In this document: in pieces, positions 246 to 5,423 of the stretch | Layout: each line of letters starts with the position of its first letter | Numbering within the stretch: position 1 is the stretch's first letter | Assembly (NCBI GenBank): GCA_012329085.1 | Contig: JAAXQB010000133.1 | Coordinates: forward strand, 1 to 5,423 | Source: Methanosarcinales archaeon | GTDB taxonomy: Archaea; Halobacteriota; Methanosarcinia; Methanosarcinales; Methanosarcinaceae | Direction: 5' to 3' | DNA: 5,423 nt | Position numbers and translations under genes: made by a program | The notes under the pieces: generated by a model | What the model was told of the DNA's origin: nothing | The model's input: only the letters and a program-made list of their open reading frames with translations | Database searches by the model: none

Positions 246-272
246 TAGCACATTCGGGACGAATGGGCGTTA
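246..272 (+). repeat. 27-bp palindrome family, copy 1
   Basis: Begins TAGCACATTCGGGACGAATG and ends GGCGTTA. The core CATTCG-GGA-CGAATG is a perfect 6-bp inverted repeat. The asymmetric ends TAGC and GCGTTA give the copy an orientation, here plus. It lies about 70 bases after the histidine kinase and could also form a hairpin in its transcript. Confidence 0.8.
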
Positions 273-275
273 AAT

Positions 276-292
276 ATAACTTATAAAGTTAT
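276..292. repeat. AT palindrome ATAACTT-ATA-AAGTTAT, copy A
   Basis: A perfect 7-3-7 inverted repeat lying between palindrome copies 1 and 2. Eighteen bases (277-294) recur identically at 3071-3088, again between two copies of the palindrome family. It may be a protein-binding site or part of a composite repeat; the role is unknown. Confidence 0.7.
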
Positions 293-312
293 ATAATAGA
301 GTAAATTTTTAA

Positions 313-339
313 TAGCTCGTTCGAAACGAACGATCGTTA
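313..339 (+). repeat. 27-bp palindrome family, copy 2
   Basis: Starts TAGCTCGTTCGAAACGAACG and ends ATCGTTA, exactly 27 bases like copy 1 and in the same orientation. Its core CGTTCG-AAA-CGAACG is perfectly self-complementary. The right flank (TATCTCGCAATTTA) is also similar to the flank of copy 5, so the repeated unit may extend past 339. Confidence 0.8.
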
Positions 340-474
340 TCTCGCAATTTAGTAATATTTTAAAATTATTTTATTTAATGCGTAATATTTAATTTCAAAA
401 AATAACTTTTTACAATACATTAAGTTCTTAAAATTTTATAACAATGAAATTAACATTGAAATTTTCTTAAATTC

Positions 475-502
475 TATATATATATATGGATATATATATA
501 TC
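475..502. repeat. TA-dinucleotide tract
   Basis: Two runs of alternating TA are separated by GGA; positions 489-502 form the perfect palindrome GATATATATATATC. This is low-complexity DNA that could extrude or slip during replication. No function is implied. Confidence 0.6.
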
Positions 503-642
503 TTACTTTCCACAGATTTTCATCTATCTTTTTATACAATTTATAATAATTATATTTTTAGATATTTGATAAATATTATTTTTAGAGTGTAATGGCACAA
601 TCTGTTTAATTTCAACAAAGAATGCTATATATACATAAAATT

Positions 643-810
643 TCAATCTGAAATATTGATTAAATCCTTTGCAAATAAATCATAATAAAAAGCAACATCC
701 TTATCAATTATTGGTGGAGTAACTGTAATAAGAATTGCAATATTATTATAATTTAAACGCCAATAAATATGTCTAAACTATGCATCATATTTACAATTAA
801 GGATGTCTAT
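643..810 (-). pseudogene. Possible remnant of a second EpsI-like gene
   Basis: On the minus strand an open stretch of 45 codons (777 down to the TGA at 643-645) reads FRHIYWRLNYNNIAILITV, then TPPIIDKDVAFYYDLFAKDL and INISD. A stop (TAG, 778-780) interrupts it and the same frame continues upstream as ILNCKYDA. The order IYW, a hydrophobic strand with a proline soon after, then an aromatic helix resembles the C-terminal part of the intact EpsI at 3203-4003 (AIYWYMFRRFGRDEGVTMIR, LTAP, ENELFD). This is a hand alignment with low identity, so the assignment is tentative. It has no visible start and lies tail to tail with nothing intact. It could instead be the remnant of an unrelated protein, or chance in AT-rich sequence. 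Confidence 0.35.
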
Positions 811-830
811 AAATTAAATTAATTGCACAA

Positions 831-1321
831 ATTAATAAAATTAGAATAATAATCATAACATGTATAATATTTTTTGCATTTGTAAGAACTCTAACTTTAC
901 CACATGTAAATAATTGATTAAATTTGATAATTCGATAGTTCGTGTAAAATAAGTTATAGCTGTATGTGTAAGATTATTTGTTGATGCCTTAAATAATAAT
1001 AAAGGAATTGTGCGATTAACAACAACAAGAGCAAACGCGGTTGGTGTTGATGAAGTATCATTTGCAAAAATTGTTTTTGAAATCATATCACACAGTTTAA
1101 CAATTTTGGATATAACTGGGTTTTCAAAAACAAATTGAGATAAAGAATTTATATCTTATTCAATTGCATATGATGGAAAAATAATAATGATATCGCTATA
1201 ACATACAGAAGAATATAAATATTATTTTGAAAAGTCAGAACCAAAAATATCAGAATTTGTGATTGTGATTGTAATATTGTCAATTCTTGGAGTTGTATTG
1301 TTATTTAAAAAAATCAAATAA
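831..1321 (+). pseudogene. Broken gene for a secreted protein with a C-terminal sorting-type tail
   Basis: The frame at 831-917 reads INKIRIIIITCIIFFAFVRT, like a signal peptide but with ATT where ATG would be expected. The reading then shifts to a second frame, which runs from 914 to the TAA at 1319-1321 with in-frame stops at 950, 1136 and 1199. That frame contains protein-like sequence (LFVDALNNNKGIVRLTTTRA; SFAKIVFEIISHSLTILDIT; EEYKYYFEKS). It ends with EPKISEF, a hydrophobic run VIVIVILSILGVVLLF and the basic KKIK. A short PEF-like motif, membrane helix and basic tail at the extreme C-terminus is the layout of archaeal PEF-CTERM sorting signals. I infer a former exosortase substrate of about 165 residues that has lost its start, shifted frame and gained stops. 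The body is not a family I recognise. The opposite strand is open over 853-1086 but looks like a shadow. Confidence 0.6.
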
Positions 1322-1343
1322 CGATCATTCGTTCCGAACGATC
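1319..1343 (-). repeat. 27-bp palindrome family, copy 3a
   Basis: Reads TAACGATCATTCGTTCCGAA on the plus strand, the reverse orientation of copies 1 and 2. It forms a direct tandem with copy 3b at a 25-base period (22 of 25 bases identical by eye). Its first bases overlap the final TAA of the upstream pseudogene. Confidence 0.8.
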
Positions 1344-1370
1344 AAACGCTCATTCGTTCCGAACGAGCTA
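1344..1370 (-). repeat. 27-bp palindrome family, copy 3b
   Basis: Second tandem unit, ending GAACGAGCTA. The 9-base arms GCTCATTCG and CGAACGAGC pair around TTC with one A-C mismatch in plus-strand RNA; in minus-strand RNA the same pair is a G-U wobble. Seven Ts follow at 1378-1384 on the plus strand, so copies 3a/3b could have ended transcription of the upstream pseudogene. Confidence 0.8.
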
Positions 1371-1383
1371 TCAAAGATTTTTT

Positions 1384-1410
1384 TAACGCACATTCATTAT
1401 GAATATGCTA
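1384..1410 (-). repeat. 27-bp palindrome family, copy 4
   Basis: TAACGCACATTCATTATGAA then TATGCTA: same length and end bases as the family in minus orientation, but with an AT-rich core (CATTCA-TTA-TGAATA, one mismatch). It appears to be a more decayed copy. Confidence 0.7.
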
Positions 1411-1433
1411 AAACAAAACTTAAATAAAATAAA

Positions 1434-1465
1434 AATGAGATTTAAAAATCTTATTCTATTTTTTT
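1434..1465 (+). terminator. Hairpin plus T-run, possible terminator
   Basis: AATGAGATTT and AAATCTTATT pair over 10 bases (one G-U) around AA, followed after CTA by seven Ts (1459-1465). The form suits an intrinsic terminator for plus-strand transcription through the pseudogene. The stem is AT-rich, so strength is doubtful; T-runs alone can terminate archaeal transcription. Confidence 0.4.
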
Positions 1466-1598
1466 AAATAATTCAAAAAGTTTATTTGAAATGAATGCAT
1501 CATTCATAAAATATATAATATTTATTAATAAATATAATTTTTAATTTTATTAAAATGCCATAACAATCAAATAAAGAAATGTATTTATACTTGAATGA
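1466..1598. other. AT-rich spacer with two inverted repeats
   Basis: No gene seen. It contains ATGAATG-CAT-CATTCAT at 1491-1507, whose arms resemble the core of the palindrome family, and the perfect 18-base palindrome ATATTTATTAATAAATAT at 1518-1535. Confidence 0.5.
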
Positions 1599-1715
1599 AT
1601 GATAATTAAAGACATGAAATTAAAGCCATCGATATACGAATATGAAAATGGAGTGTATTTGCATCAATTTATAAATAGATATGTAAATATATGGGGGCGA
1701 TGTGGAAAAAAATAA
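1599..1715 (+). CDS. Possible 38-residue small protein overlapping the CPBP start
   Basis: An ATG at 1599 (second ATG at 1614) opens a frame encoding MIIKDMKLKPSIYEYENGVY, then LHQFINRYVNIWGRCGKK, ending in TAA at 1713-1715. It overlaps the start of the CPBP gene by 14 bases in another frame. The composition looks protein-like (many Tyr, Asn, Lys, one Trp) rather than a random translation of AT-rich DNA, but it matches nothing I recognise. The TTTATAAA promoter proposed for the CPBP gene lies inside it, which argues that if real it is separately transcribed or a remnant. Low confidence. Confidence 0.25.
   Translation: MIIKDMKLKPSIYEYENGVYLHQFINRYVNIWGRCGKK
1668..1675 (+). promoter_or_regulatory. 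TATA box for the CPBP gene
   Basis: TTTATAAA centred about 30 bases before the GTG at 1702. Archaeal TATA boxes lie about 26 bases before the transcript start, which places it near 1698 and gives a leader of only a few bases. The sequence GGGGGCGAT (1693-1701) resembles a Shine-Dalgarno site (AGGAGGTGAT type), but most of it would then lie upstream of the transcript start. Confidence 0.5.
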
Positions 1716-2478
1716 TCTAATACATTATAAAGTAGTTGTTGCACATGTGCTTGCAATTTTTATGGGGGAGTTTTTTATATTTTATGGGCAAATGCTTGCG
1801 GGTGCAACCATCCATTTTATCAACATGCACACAATAGTTATTTCAATGGTATTTATCAAAAATAAAAATAGTGTATTGACCAATCAACTTATTCAATCAC
1901 TTGTTCTTTTATTGCAACTTAGACTAATCAGCATGATAATGCCAATATTCTTTGCTATGACGATATACCATCATGCAATGATATATGCACCATTATTCAT
2001 ACCAATATATATTTTACTTGTGCATCAAAAATTTACAATGAATGAAATTGGGGCTACTTTTAAATCATTCCATATATATGTTATGGCTGCAATTCCAATT
2101 GGAATGGGATTGGCATGGATTGGATATCATGTAATTCATCCTGCATACATGATACCAGATATTAGAGTGCCAAATTTAATAATTATGGCTATAATAATGA
2201 TTATGTTTGCAGGCATGGCAGAATCACTTATTTTTTGGTCGATATTACAAACAAGATTTGAAAAAGTAATAGGTCCATTGCAAGGAGTGTTAGCCACAAG
2301 TGTTTTATTTGGAATTATGCACTCTGGGCATGGAAATATATATGTAATTGCTTTTGCATGCTTTGTAGGATTGATAATGGGATATATATTTCATAAAACT
2401 CGAAGCTTGCCATTCATAGTAAGTATATTTTGTATTAATAATATATTCCTTTATGGATTATTTCCACACATGCTATAA
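1702..2478 (+). CDS. CPBP (CAAX protease-like) integral membrane protein with degenerate active site
   Basis: This is a 258-residue, very hydrophobic protein with about seven to eight membrane segments. Its C-terminal 90 residues match the CPBP/Rce1-like intramembrane protease domain (AESLIFW 173-179, LQTRFEKVIGPLQG, FGIMH 203-207, KTRSLPFIV 232-240). Family motif 1 is normally EExxxR; here it is E174-S175-xxx-W179. Motif 2, FxxxH, is intact (F203, H207). The last His of the usual H-xxx-N motif is Phe (F243), while N247 is kept. Active members cleave membrane proteins or lipidated peptides; with these losses this copy may be inactive or have another role. Relatives act near exosortases and as sorting proteases (the myxosortase-type CPBP proteins), so a sorting role is possible but inferred. 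GTG 1702 is chosen because a stop lies in frame at 1684 and no ATG occurs before residue 21. Confidence 0.8.
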   Translation: MEKNNLIHYKVVVAHVLAIFMGEFFIFYGQMLAGATIHFINMHTIVISMVFIKNKNSVLTNQLIQSLVLLLQLRLISMIMPIFFAMTIYHHAMIYAPLFIPIYILLVHQKFTMNEIGATFKSFHIYVMAAIPIGMGLAWIGYHVIHPAYMIPDIRVPNLIIMAIIMIMFAGMAESLIFWSILQTRFEKVIGPLQGVLATSVLFGIMHSGHGNIYVIAFACFVGLIMGYIFHKTRSLPFIVSIFCINNIFLYGLFPHML

Positions 2479-2482
2479 ATTA

Positions 2483-2731
2483 TTACAATATGTATTCAAA
2501 ATATCTTAATATATTAGAAATGATTATTGTTAAATAAATAAAAATGAATGTTAGCATACACATAACAAATGTATTTTTACTCCACTCATTTTGCATGTTT
2601 AAATGCGATATAAGTTCGATTGTTGTAATTGATATTATAAGTGAGATGGTTATGAATAGCAATCCATATTCAAATGGTATGGCGTTATGCACATTTGCAG
2701 ATTCTACATTTGATACAATGACTGTTAACAT
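2483..2731 (-). CDS. Small two-helix membrane protein, unknown function
   Basis: The product has 82 residues with two predicted membrane segments (about residues 23-42 and 54-76) joined by a short polar loop (HLNMQNEWSKN). The N-terminus (MLTVIVSNVESANVHNAIPF) is mildly polar. I recognise no family. A TTTATAAA box lies 27 bases before the ATG, the expected spacing for a leaderless archaeal transcript, and there is no Shine-Dalgarno sequence. It converges on the CPBP gene with four bases between the two stop codons. The opposite strand also has an ATG-started open frame over 2544-2741; the promoter position and the clean hydrophobic pattern favour the minus-strand reading. Confidence 0.55.
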   Translation of the reverse strand: MLTVIVSNVESANVHNAIPFEYGLLFITISLIISITTIELISHLNMQNEWSKNTFVMCMLTFIFIYLTIIISNILRYFEYIL

Positions 2732-2754
2732 GATATTATAATTACTTGCATTAA

Positions 2755-2762
2755 TTTATAAA
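2755..2762 (-). promoter_or_regulatory. TATA box for the small membrane protein
   Basis: TTTATAAA, the same eight bases as before the CPBP gene, centred 27 bases from the A of the ATG at 2731. This spacing predicts that transcription starts at or next to the start codon. Confidence 0.5.
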
Positions 2763-2888
2763 CTTTACAATTCTATTTAAAATTGATAGAAGTTTAATAT
2801 ATGGTGTTTAAAATTTGATTTTTAAAAATATTTAAATTTACTAATTGATGTTACACAAATATAATTTTATTTTATTTCTGTATTTCAA

Positions 2889-2915
2889 TAGCTTATTCAA
2901 AATGAATGGGCGTTA
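2889..2915 (+). repeat. 27-bp palindrome family, copy 5
   Basis: TAGCTTATTCAAAATGAATG then GGCGTTA, 27 bases, plus orientation. The core ATTCAAAATGAAT is imperfect. Flanks match those of copy 2 (AATAGCT before, TATCTTGCA after), suggesting the element is longer than the palindrome itself. Confidence 0.75.
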
Positions 2916-3070
2916 TCTTGCATTTAAAATACTGATTTACAATTACTTTTTTTATCATTTGTGTTAATTTACTTTATTGTATGTATTTAATGATTGTAAA
3001 AAAATATGCATTAATTTGTGTAATTTACATACTTTTCAGATTGATGTATTCATCACTTTTTCATTGTATG

Positions 3071-3088
3071 TAACTTATAAAGTTATAT
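3071..3088. repeat. AT palindrome, copy B
   Basis: Identical over 18 bases (TAACTTATAAAGTTATAT) to 277-294. As with copy A, it lies between two members of the palindrome family (copies 5 and 6). Confidence 0.7.
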
Positions 3089-3116
3089 GCTTAACATGAT
3101 TTCTTTACAATAGCTA

Positions 3117-3152
3117 TAAAAAAAATTCAACGGATCATTCGGGATGAATGAT
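3117..3152 (-). terminator. Hairpin plus eight Ts after EpsI
   Basis: Read on the minus strand, ATCATTC-ATCCC-GAATGAT forms a 7-bp stem with a 5-base loop, followed after CCGTTGAA by eight Ts (3125-3118). It lies about 50 bases beyond the EpsI stop in the direction of transcription, so it is a plausible terminator for the exosortase-EpsI unit. The stem is palindrome copy 6. Confidence 0.5.
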
Positions 3153-3157
3153 TATTG
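3127..3157 (-). repeat. 27-bp palindrome family, copy 6 (diverged)
   Basis: TCAACGGATCATTCGGGATG then AATGATTATTG. It has the core ATCATTC/GAATGAT and the AACG end, but the TAGC end is lost and there is an extra base. It is included as a diverged member; the match is weaker than for copies 1-5. Confidence 0.5.
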
Positions 3158-3202: not shown

Positions 3203-4003
3203 TTAAAATTTTTTTTTTAATTTATTTGAAAATATTATAATTATTGGAATCGTAACAAGCAATAAAATGATGAAAATTCCCATCGATCCATGTTTATATA
3301 TAATTTGTTCAGATATTGTTATTTCTAAAATTTCATCTCCATACATCGCATCGAATAATTCATTTTCTATAAATCCTGACATCATTGCAAGTGTTGCATA
3401 AGTATCAACTCGCACAGGTGCAGTTAATCTAATCATTGTAACACCTTCATCTCTGCCAAATCTTCTAAACATATACCAATATATTGCAACTTGTTTTCTA
3501 TCGGGATTTACTTGATTATGCGCAAATAATTTATTTACATACATATTTCCAAATATTAAATAATCTCCATCTCTTGCAACATTGAGTTGCTTAATATCTA
3601 TATTTGAAATATCCCACCCATGACTAAAACATGCTATTGGATCGTGAAACCCTCCTCCTTTTCGGCTATTTATTATATCCATGAATATAATCCCTTCTTC
3701 GCTTGTAAATGCCCTACTCATAAGTATGTCAATATCTAATATTTCATATACATGATCTGGATATGTGAAATTAAATCCTTGCCAATTCCCAAGAACCATA
3801 GGAAATCGTTCAATGTCTTCTCTACAATTATAATCAAATGCTGTTTTTAAAAGCATACGATTCTCTGTCTCATGCCAAGAAGTATCAACAACAGTATAAT
3901 CGGCAAGATCTATTGGAGATAAAAGAAAAATAATTACAAATGTTAATAAAAATATGCCAACTATTGTTATGAGATTTCTCTTAATTTCAGAGATCCGAAA
4001 CAC
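3203..4003 (-). CDS. EpsI-type exosortase partner (DUF3485 family)
   Basis: The 266-residue protein is probably membrane-anchored with its main domain outside. It has one N-terminal membrane segment (about 11-28). Next comes FPMVLGNWQGFNF (67-79), the P-x-x-L-G-x-W signature of EpsI, and SRKGGGFHDPIACFSHGW (113-130) with the H-x-P-x-x-C motif (H120, P122, C125). AIYWYMFRRF (173-182) and IRLTAPVRVD (191-200) close the domain. A second hydrophobic segment (about 240-258) and the tail NKLKKKF follow; most bacterial EpsI proteins lack this C-terminal helix. EpsI proteins are found beside exosortases, often fused to them, and are thought to assist export or processing. The gene overlaps the exosortase by 37 bases. 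The GTG start at 4001-4003 lies inside the Shine-Dalgarno-like GGGAGGTG; no ATG, GTG or TTG follows in frame nearby, so the start is unsure. Confidence 0.85.
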   Translation of the reverse strand: MFRISEIKRNLITIVGIFLLTFVIIFLLSPIDLADYTVVDTSWHETENRMLLKTAFDYNCREDIERFPMVLGNWQGFNFTYPDHVYEILDIDILMSRAFTSEEGIIFMDIINSRKGGGFHDPIACFSHGWDISNIDIKQLNVARDGDYLIFGNMYVNKLFAHNQVNPDRKQVAIYWYMFRRFGRDEGVTMIRLTAPVRVDTYATLAMMSGFIENELFDAMYGDEILEITISEQIIYKHGSMGIFIILLLVTIPIIIIFSNKLKKKF

Positions 4004-4797
4004 CTCCCTATGATAAATAATAGTATAATTGATATGCTAAAAAAAATTGGGCTAGATATATCATGGAAGAATACCATAGCAGCATCTTTGCCATACATGT
4101 CAGCTACAACTAATATAGATGCTATTCGTAAAATATTCATTGATATTGCAATTGGGAAAGTAGCCAAGAGTAAAGATAATTTCATATATATCGTGCCTTT
4201 CAAGACATAAGCATATATGGTTGAAAGTGTTATGAGGGAAATTATTGATTTAATTCCACTGCATGGTGCAGCTACTAAAAAAGTACCTGCATCCGTTTGT
4301 ATTTTTGCACCGACATTAATGGCTGATATGCCTAAAGTTTGAACTATAATAGTTGAAATATTTGCAGAAAAAAGTTCCATATTAACAGAAGCAGTGCTAA
4401 GTGGTATTGGAACCATAAAAAATAAAAACAATATTGGAAATGCCAGCGATTTAATAGTATTTATACCGTAAATATAAATAATTAGTCCTGCCATTACAGT
4501 AATGAGTGATATGGCAGATAAAAATCTAATGGTCCAAAACCATCCTATGCCATGTATTATTAAACCAATTATAAAAAGCACAACTCCCATATCAGATGAA
4601 TTTTTTTTTATAGAGGATAGTGTAGATCTTTTTTTCCATACAACATACCCAGAAATTAATGGAACCATAAATCCATGTGAAAAATATGGGTTGTGAGTCC
4701 ATGAACTTATAAGCCAAGTGAATGTATTAAAATAAAGTGCAAATATAAATCCTGCTATTAACAGAAATGTAATTTTTATGTATTTATCATCGTTCAT
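3967..4797 (-). CDS. Exosortase/archaeosortase family transpeptidase
   Basis: This polytopic membrane enzyme cuts proteins bearing a C-terminal PEP/PEF-type sorting tail and transfers them to a cell-envelope acceptor. It has 276 residues and about eight membrane segments. The catalytic triad is visible: Cys179 in APCSGI, Arg224 in NILRI and His245 in FFHD. Other family landmarks are SHGFMVPL (40-47) and MVPIPLST (128-135). The ATG at 4797 gives the usual N-terminus and has no Shine-Dalgarno sequence. It overlaps EpsI by 37 bases, so both are probably made from one transcript. An eroded relative lies upstream at about 4950-5245, and a sorting-tail protein beyond it is a candidate substrate. 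The family is clear; the subtype (archaeosortase class or exosortase class) cannot be fixed by eye. Confidence 0.93.
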   Translation of the reverse strand: MNDDKYIKITFLLIAGFIFALYFNTFTWLISSWTHNPYFSHGFMVPLISGYVVWKKRSTLSSIKKNSSDMGVVLFIIGLIIHGIGWFWTIRFLSAISLITVMAGLIIYIYGINTIKSLAFPILFLFFMVPIPLSTASVNMELFSANISTIIVQTLGISAINVGAKIQTDAGTFLVAAPCSGIKSIISLITLSTIYAYVLKGTIYMKLSLLLATFPIAISMNILRIASILVVADMYGKDAAMVFFHDISSPIFFSISIILLFIIGRCFGSLKLREIS

Positions 4798-4949: not shown

Positions 4950-5245
4950 AAGTTTAAAAATTGAATTAATAAAGATATTTTTGCATCGGCATCAATTATA
5001 AAATGAAAATGTATTCAACATATCGATAATAATAAAATATATAAAAAAAAGTTTCATAATAGCAAATGCAATAATTAAAAATTAAAAATGATATTGAACT
5101 ATTGATAATTTAATAATATTTATGCCATAAACAAAAAAATTAATCCTGCCATCTCGAAAATGAGTGGGATGGCAGGTAAAAGCTTAATAAAATGAGATAA
5201 ACTTATCATATAAATTATATAATCGATTTATTATCGAATTTTATA
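4950..5245 (-). pseudogene. Eroded second exosortase
   Basis: Minus-strand DNA here aligns with the middle of the intact exosortase gene. Bases 5110-5188 match 4451-4530 at roughly three positions in four by hand alignment, and encode IKLLPAIPLIFEMAGLIFLF against IRFLSAISLITVMAGLIIYI (residues 90-109). A one-base deletion follows, then nucleotide similarity continues (aligning with PILFLFFMV) and, after a gap, through GCAAAAATA near 4985, equivalent to residues 164-166. Upstream similarity fades by about 5245, so roughly the first 60 codons are missing; the Arg and His regions are not recognisable either. Frameshifts and stops make it non-functional. It may be the former exosortase partner of the adjacent sorting-tail gene, or a duplicated piece of the intact one. 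The limits are approximate. Confidence 0.75.
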
Positions 5246-5297: not shown

Positions 5298-5423
5298 CTA
5301 CTCTTTTTTTCCTTTTTTAACAAGCCCCAATCCTGACAGACCAAGACCAACTAAAATCATCGTGGTAAGTTCTGGAATTGGAACAATTGTTGCCATTTCA
5401 AGATCCATATGTAAATAATCCAC
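5298..5423 (-). CDS. Secreted protein C-terminus with PEP-CTERM-like sorting signal (5' part outside window)
   Basis: The final 41 codons of a gene that enters from the right edge. They read VDYLHMDLEM, then ATIVPIPELT, then a hydrophobic stretch TMILVGLGLSGLGL, and end in KKGKKE. A Pro-x-Pro-Glu motif, one helix rich in Gly and Leu and a short basic tail at the C-terminus is the layout recognised by exosortases; the helix closely resembles bacterial PEP-CTERM helices. The protein is therefore a probable substrate of the exosortase at 3967-4797, and would be cleaved near the PIPE motif. Its mature domain is not in the window. The signal differs from the SEF-type tail in the 831-1321 pseudogene. 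There are no internal stops and the frame looks intact. Confidence 0.85.
   Translation of the reverse strand: MDYLHMDLEMATIVPIPELTTMILVGLGLSGLGLVKKGKKE

Follow-up and report, generated by a model that had tools for sequence, protein, structure and literature searches.

Short hairpin repeats that probably form a REP-like family in an AT-rich archaeon akin to ANME-2/Methanosarcinales

Introduction

Repetitive extragenic palindromes (REPs) are hairpin repeats that have been studied in bacteria, together with the domesticated transposases that go with them. In the parts of the cited papers available to us, on which the statements about described systems in this text are based, the GTAG superfamily, which includes REPs and bacterial interspersed mosaic elements (BIMEs) with REP-associated tyrosine transposases (RAYT, or TnpA-REP), comprises extragenic hairpins of 20–40 bp with a conserved unpaired end tag, a stem of 5–13 bp and a loop of 2–20 nt, found as singlets and in clusters (PMC3733652). 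The CGTC REPs, among them RPE-4 and RPE-6 of Rickettsia and dRS3 of Neisseria, have stems of 8–9 bp, loops of 4–5 nt and a short tail, occur in bacterial hosts that include eroding AT-rich genomes, and have no dedicated transposase (PMC3733652). Here, we describe a set of 27-nt hairpin repeats in contig JAAXQB010000133.1 (assembly GCA_012329085.1) of a Methanosarcinales archaeon. The complete contig of 5,423 bases was analysed and is referred to as the window. We consider it probable (roughly 0.6) that the copies belong to a chromosomal family of REP-like hairpin repeats, the host being an AT-rich archaeon akin to the anaerobic methanotrophic (ANME-2) lineage and other Methanosarcinales.

The window repeats resemble the GTAG REPs in that their 9-bp stem and 3-nt loop fall within the ranges given above and in their occurrence both singly and clustered; with the CGTC REPs they have in common the stem length, the short tail and the eroding AT-rich setting. 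They are imperfect palindromes that can be folded, have a length (27 nt) within the 20–40 bp of REPs in the broad sense, and are extragenic in 7/7 cases in this window. The host, however, is an archaeon, and the loop of 3 nt is shorter than the 4–5 nt of the bacterial CGTC REPs. Other REP-like families, including the REPs of Y1 classes 2.6 and 3, are likewise hairpins without a GT[AG]G tag, but these are bacterial, and the likeness is one of description (PMC3733652, PMC6006769). According to the available part of a survey of Y1 enzymes, the only ones seen in Archaea were those of IS200 subclass 1.1, and the REP-associated classes were not among them (PMC6006769). The archaeal REP list of RepRanger also consists of intergenic palindromes, but its definition takes essentially any non-terminator intergenic palindrome, and the part of its table seen contains no ANME-2 or Methanosarcinales genome (PMC12306157). 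We recognised no description of the present hairpin family in the literature, including the available parts of PMC3733652, PMC6006769, PMC2817692 and PMC12306157. If our reading is true, a tagged, covarying archaeal hairpin family would make an archaeal equivalent of the REPs testable, and likewise the question of whether repeats of this kind proliferate in eroding genomes; if just seven copies exist, this is an ordinary local repeat.

Copies and Placement of the Repeat

By folding, the 27-nt unit is a hairpin (9-bp stem, loop of 3 nt) that has TA on its 5′ side and the unpaired tail GTTA on its 3′ side. The first two copies are on the plus strand, copy 1 (246..272) reading TA-GCACATTCG-GGA-CGAATGGGC-GTTA and copy 2 (313..339) reading TA-GCTCGTTCG-AAA-CGAACGATC-GTTA, each with a single stem mismatch. 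They are followed on the minus strand by copies 3a (1319..1345; TT-GATCGTTCG-GAA-CGAATGATC-GTTA) and 3b (1344..1370; TA-GCTCGTTCG-GAA-CGAATGAGC-GTTT), which are units 2 and 1, respectively, of a single tandem pair repeating every 25 bases, and by copy 4 (1384..1410; TA-GCATATTCA-TAA-TGAATGTGC-GTTA). Copy 5 (2889..2915; TA-GCTTATTCA-AAA-TGAATGGGC-GTTA) is again on the plus strand. Copy 6 (3131..3157, plus; CG-GATCATTCG-GGA-TGAATGATT-ATTG) is degenerate; its stem is retained, while the tags are gone. A previous reading made from the letters alone (the sequence-only reading) had described seven palindromes with variable spacing (N2-3, N3-5 and N2-4) around a consensus core. The core stands, and the complete copies are exactly 27 bases long, as stated, but there are six of these and a degenerate seventh, the spacing is fixed at N3, N5 and N4 in 6/6 complete copies, and the unit, with TA at one end and GTTA at the other, is a 9-bp hairpin rather than a symmetric 27-base palindrome.

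Six places in the window matched TAGCNYRTTCRNNNYGAAYGNNCGTTA at up to three mismatches (four exactly, one with one mismatch and one with two), compared to a mean of 0 and a largest count of 0 in 200 dinucleotide shuffles; the pattern had been derived from the same copies that it then scored. With a position matrix, the six complete copies reached 33.8–45.1 bits, values that are high by construction since the same six were the training set, and the best score over 200 first-order random sequences was 13.4 bits. Copy 6, at 13.9 bits on the plus strand (3131–3157), was barely over this maximum, and its score makes it a less certain member than the other six. The sequence-only reading had taken copy 6 to be on the minus strand, opposite to copy 5. 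On that strand it scored 3.7 bits ungapped and 10.3 bits gapped, compared to 13.9 bits either way on the plus strand, so the proposed orientation was probably wrong and copies 5 and 6 probably point the same way.

Two remarks on placement were borne out. The copies are richer in GC than their surroundings (41% in the six copies, versus 21% in the intergenic stretches, with the copies included in the latter), and they are confined to non-coding DNA: intact genes are avoided by 7/7 copies (p ≈ 0.004, or ≈ 0.009 with 3a/3b counted once, given that 46% of the window is non-coding). Copy 3a overlaps the stop of the open stretch 1202–1321 by 3 bases, and the 3a/3b/4 group surrounds a decayed frame. 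Copies 1 and 2 lie 55 and 122 nt past a gene end, copy 5 lies 158 nt ahead of a gene start, and copy 6 is 46 nt from a gene end; measured to the ends of reading frames, copy 1, copy 6 and the 3a/3b/4 group are at 23–63 nt. Such distances, together with the stability of the RNA hairpins (see below), would suit RNA elements of transcripts, serving as 3′ end hairpins, terminators or stabilisers. However, the orientation of the copies to the adjacent gene varies, and none of the covariance models of Rfam 15 matched at E values up to 0.5, making a role of this kind highly improbable in our view.

Copies 1 and 2 are on the plus strand and 3a, 3b and 4 on the minus strand, as the sequence-only reading had it, and a bracketing of the remnants at 340–1318 had been seen in this arrangement. 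Along the whole window the order is + + − − − +, then + or − for copy 6, and the flanks of the copies are hardly similar (the best of 30 comparisons, the left flanks of copies 4 and 5, agreed at 17/24 positions, p = 0.0006 uncorrected); the bracketing is thus no signal. Inverted pairs are formed by copies 2 and 3b (36 nt, 86%) and by copies 4 and 5 (51 nt, 80%), as would be expected if one or two transposons, now decayed, had left the copies as their terminal inverted repeats, at 313–1370 or 1384–2915. However, single copies occur, no target duplication was seen by eye, and there was no Pfam transposase match in the scanned pieces of 340–1318. The second interval is unlikely to be a transposon because the genes that it holds, for a CPBP protein and a small membrane protein, keep their place in four relative loci (L002, L003, L004 and L006). 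Since the copies are singly placed, with no flank homology beyond one marginal pair and no special orientation, the suggestion that they are the ends of one miniature transposon is unsupported. We give the transposon termini considered above (313–1370 or 1384–2915) very little chance.

A second type of short hairpin (TAACTT-ATA-AAGTTA) occurs at two places on the plus strand, 274–294 and 3068–3088, which agree exactly over 18 bases. The first lies 2 bases past copy 1, and the second lies ≈40 bases ahead of copy 6.

Hairpin Structure and Covariation

The stem has the consensus GCNYRTTCR/YGAAYGNGC; read on the other strand, the unit is a 5′ TAAC tag followed by the hairpin. In the seven copies, with copy 6 on the plus strand, 61/63 stem cells hold standard pairs, and 4/9 stem pairs have changed on both sides (e.g., C-G to A-T, G-C to A-T, T-A to A-T and A-T to G-C). 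The covariation score of this structure was 0.455, compared to a shuffled mean of 0.286, and was reached by 3/500 shuffles; structures slid along the alignment scored at most 0.074. Placing copy 6 on the minus strand instead gave 59/63 paired stem cells, 4/9 doubly changed pairs and a score of 0.392 (2/500 shuffles). Pairing in the stem has been kept while the bases changed, and many such differences between the copies suggest age and repeated spread.

The central TTC...GAA is invariant in 7/7 copies. A symmetric core of this type would also be expected of operator sites for a dimeric regulator, with half-site YRTTCR and a spacing of 3. However, both arms change together, the outer stem included, and the copies have no common promoter position and no fixed relation to gene starts. 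Operator sites, which the sequence-only reading had listed among the possible natures of the repeat, are thereby disfavoured, and we consider them improbable.

The hairpins of 7/7 copies are more stable than their shuffles on the TAGC strand (RNA z-scores from −2.0 to −4.6, and −5.2). The non-Watson–Crick stem cells on this strand are five G-T, two A-C and two others with copy 6 on the minus strand, or seven G-U and two others with copy 6 on the plus strand; in the six good copies, the odd pairs are G-T rather than A-C, by 5 to 0. This hints that the TAGC strand is the folding one; copies 3a and 3b have one of the five G-T changes in common, so these reflect four independent events or fewer.

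Occurrence Elsewhere and Interpretation

Three exact, narrow patterns gave 0 matches in viral contigs, and one strict pattern gave 0 matches in 84,980 species genomes; the strict pattern fits 4/7 window copies, so that variants would be missed. In 23 archaeal comparison loci, a hairpin filter that recovers a family of three in the window found no family of at least three, and a pair in three loci. A covariance model (R1) with strict filters had matches in 1/392 genomes of the phylum, G300 (0.7 Mb), at 28.4, 26.7 and 25.1 bits. When applied to the window, the same model gave 25.2 bits for copy 6 and 37.9–39.6 bits for the five best copies. The G300 hairpins, which are few, have the core and the 9-bp/3-nt plan in common with the window repeats and score like copy 6. 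One of them, by eye, is alike over ≈32 nt at two of the loci (L098, 1500–1565; L099, 1500–1540); it is present exactly at 2 places in the genome and at 35 places with up to two mismatches, mostly weak, compared to 4 for the reversed control. A second hairpin at L098 ≈1533–1565 (minus strand), opposite in orientation to its neighbour, reads TA-stem-AAA-stem-GTTA by eye. There was no exosortase match in G300. The kinship of these hairpins is doubtful, and they are not counted as family members; as far as the compared genomes go, the family appears to be lineage-specific.

A REP-like nature, the first of those that the sequence-only reading had offered, fits the copies best, in view of a short, non-coding, conserved hairpin with a one-sided unpaired tag that occurs as singlets and as a tandem pair, and on our analysis "works like a REP" is the most likely statement. 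The units would spread as single-stranded hairpins, recognised through their shape plus the tag, and the most likely mobiliser would be a HuH Y1 transposase of the IS200/IS605 type acting in trans. Spacers and decaying genes would be tolerated insertion places, and local duplication would have produced the tandem units 3a/3b. In essence, the units would be non-autonomous mobile DNA with no fixed job at each site. Y1_Tnp (PF01797) is present in 167/237 genomes of the class, so candidate mobilisers are common and a Y1 enzyme, though not linked to the repeats, is plausible; provided that the family is REP-like, its spread by such an enzyme has somewhat less than an even chance. A bolder form of the proposal would make the repeats the archaeal equivalent of the bacterial REP system. 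They would have a tag (GTTA/TAAC) and a single-strand transposase peculiar to them and would proliferate in an eroding, AT-rich ANME-2-like genome, with the G300 hairpins as distant members; this strikes us as quite unlikely.

Several observations weigh against a REP-like family. Four doubly changed pairs, by the measure rated least misled by relatedness of sequences (and the copies here are related), were matched by 38/500 shuffles, or 40/500 with copy 6 on the minus strand. The 9-bp structure was picked after folding and was the third tried: the first, which was out of register, and the second, in which TAGC and GTTA were paired, had covariation reached by 94/500 and 86/500 shuffles, respectively, no clear excess, and were rejected. 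The window units have TA at one end and GTTA at the other (TAAC in the opposite strand) and lack the unpaired GTAG end tag of the GTAG REPs; nor do they have the unpaired CGTC tag and 4–5-nt loop of the CGTC REPs. The CGTT(A) found here is joined to the stem. The earlier remark that no named family fits is thus sustained, within what was searched, by the lack of both tags as described in the available part of PMC3733652 and of an Rfam match. Pfam scans of six open reading frames and five further pieces of the window recognised no transposase. Finally, the copies seen are those of one 5.4-kb contig, and relatives yielded no convincing member: there was a match at up to two mismatches in 0/16 relative genomes, and 2/237 genomes of the class had single off-consensus matches each, below the 8 matches in 7 genomes of the reversed control.

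This absence from relatives would also be expected from a purely local expansion, in which one hairpin was copied within an eroding 3-kb stretch through slippage, hairpin-templated repair or gene conversion, with no transposase and no genome-wide family. The tandem pair 3a/3b and the confinement of the copies seen to 2.9 kb, with other decay close by, point in the same direction. However, many positions differ between the copies with pairing kept, and the flanks are mostly unshared. We therefore regard local expansion as unlikely, albeit with an appreciable chance, and retain the REP-like family as the preferred reading.

Gene Setting

The window has a GC content of 26% and is 54% coding. It begins with the end of a histidine kinase gene (1–191; HATPase_c), followed by the genes for the CPBP/Rce1-like protein (1702–2478) and, on the minus strand, the small membrane protein (2483–2731), an EpsI-like DUF3485 protein (3203–4003; 25.0 bits, slightly below the Pfam cut-off of 26.1) and an exosortase (3967–4797; EpsH, 186 bits). 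Last comes, also on the minus strand, the tail of what is probably a sorted surface protein (5298–5423), for which the PEP-CTERM models were under their cut-offs. Among the species genomes, the best relatives of the exosortase are from Methanosarcinales, ANME-2 and Methanoperedens, at identities of no more than 50%, and a tree of 30 rows placed the window exosortase near these relatives on a long branch (0.64), with no starred support. The GC content was 35–53% across 16 relative loci, versus 26% in the window. From the low GC content, the non-coding share and the long exosortase branch, the lineage would be an unusually AT-rich, eroding one near ANME-2, and possibly host-restricted. The window DNA had no match to phages, and one 53-base match to plasmids, in an insect symbiont record, was judged to be of low complexity.

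The exosortase, EpsI, small protein and convergent CPBP genes have the same order in L002, L003, L004 and L006 (five loci compared, with the small gene matched by eye); in L001, this order is absent at that place. By gene content and order, the cluster is best described as that of ANME-2/Methanosarcinales archaea. The gap between the EpsI and small protein genes measures 128 bases in L002 and 131 in L003, is −4 bases in L006, and holds another gene in L004. In the window it is 471 bases, with copies 5 and 6 inside, and by comparison with these loci would therefore be either an insertion-rich spacer or the site of a lost gene.

In the CPBP protein, the EExxFR motif reads ESxxFW and a later HG reads FC, both kept in 5/5 aligned relatives; the protein may be an inactive paralogue or may be decaying. 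An identical CPBP protein is present on 17 contigs and its cluster contains 2 sequences, the EpsI cluster contains 19 sequences, and the exosortase is on 1 contig. The neighbouring CPBP and EpsI genes seem to differ greatly in population variability. The presence of the CPBP protein on 17 contigs, versus 1 for the exosortase, had suggested that 1384–2915 was a multicopy mobile unit; this idea was dropped because the organism is often sampled, as the EpsI cluster of 19 indicates, and the CPBP gene keeps its place in relatives.

The region 953–1321 consists of broken open stretches that end in a hydrophobic segment and lysines and by eye resemble the tail of a sorted surface protein of the PEF-CTERM type. 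No family model matched the pieces, which were all that was searched (best, Heimdall-CTERM, E = 0.16). The stop codon of this decayed frame comes from the end of copy 3a. Further downstream, 4976–5188 contains three direct repeats (D3, D6 and D19) to the exosortase gene at 4300–4530, with a nearly constant offset of 658–677, which suggests a decayed partial exosortase copy; tblastn returned a 9-residue piece alone (E = 1.6). The strongest hairpin of the window, at 5145–5176 (−19.6 kcal/mol), is located inside this region.

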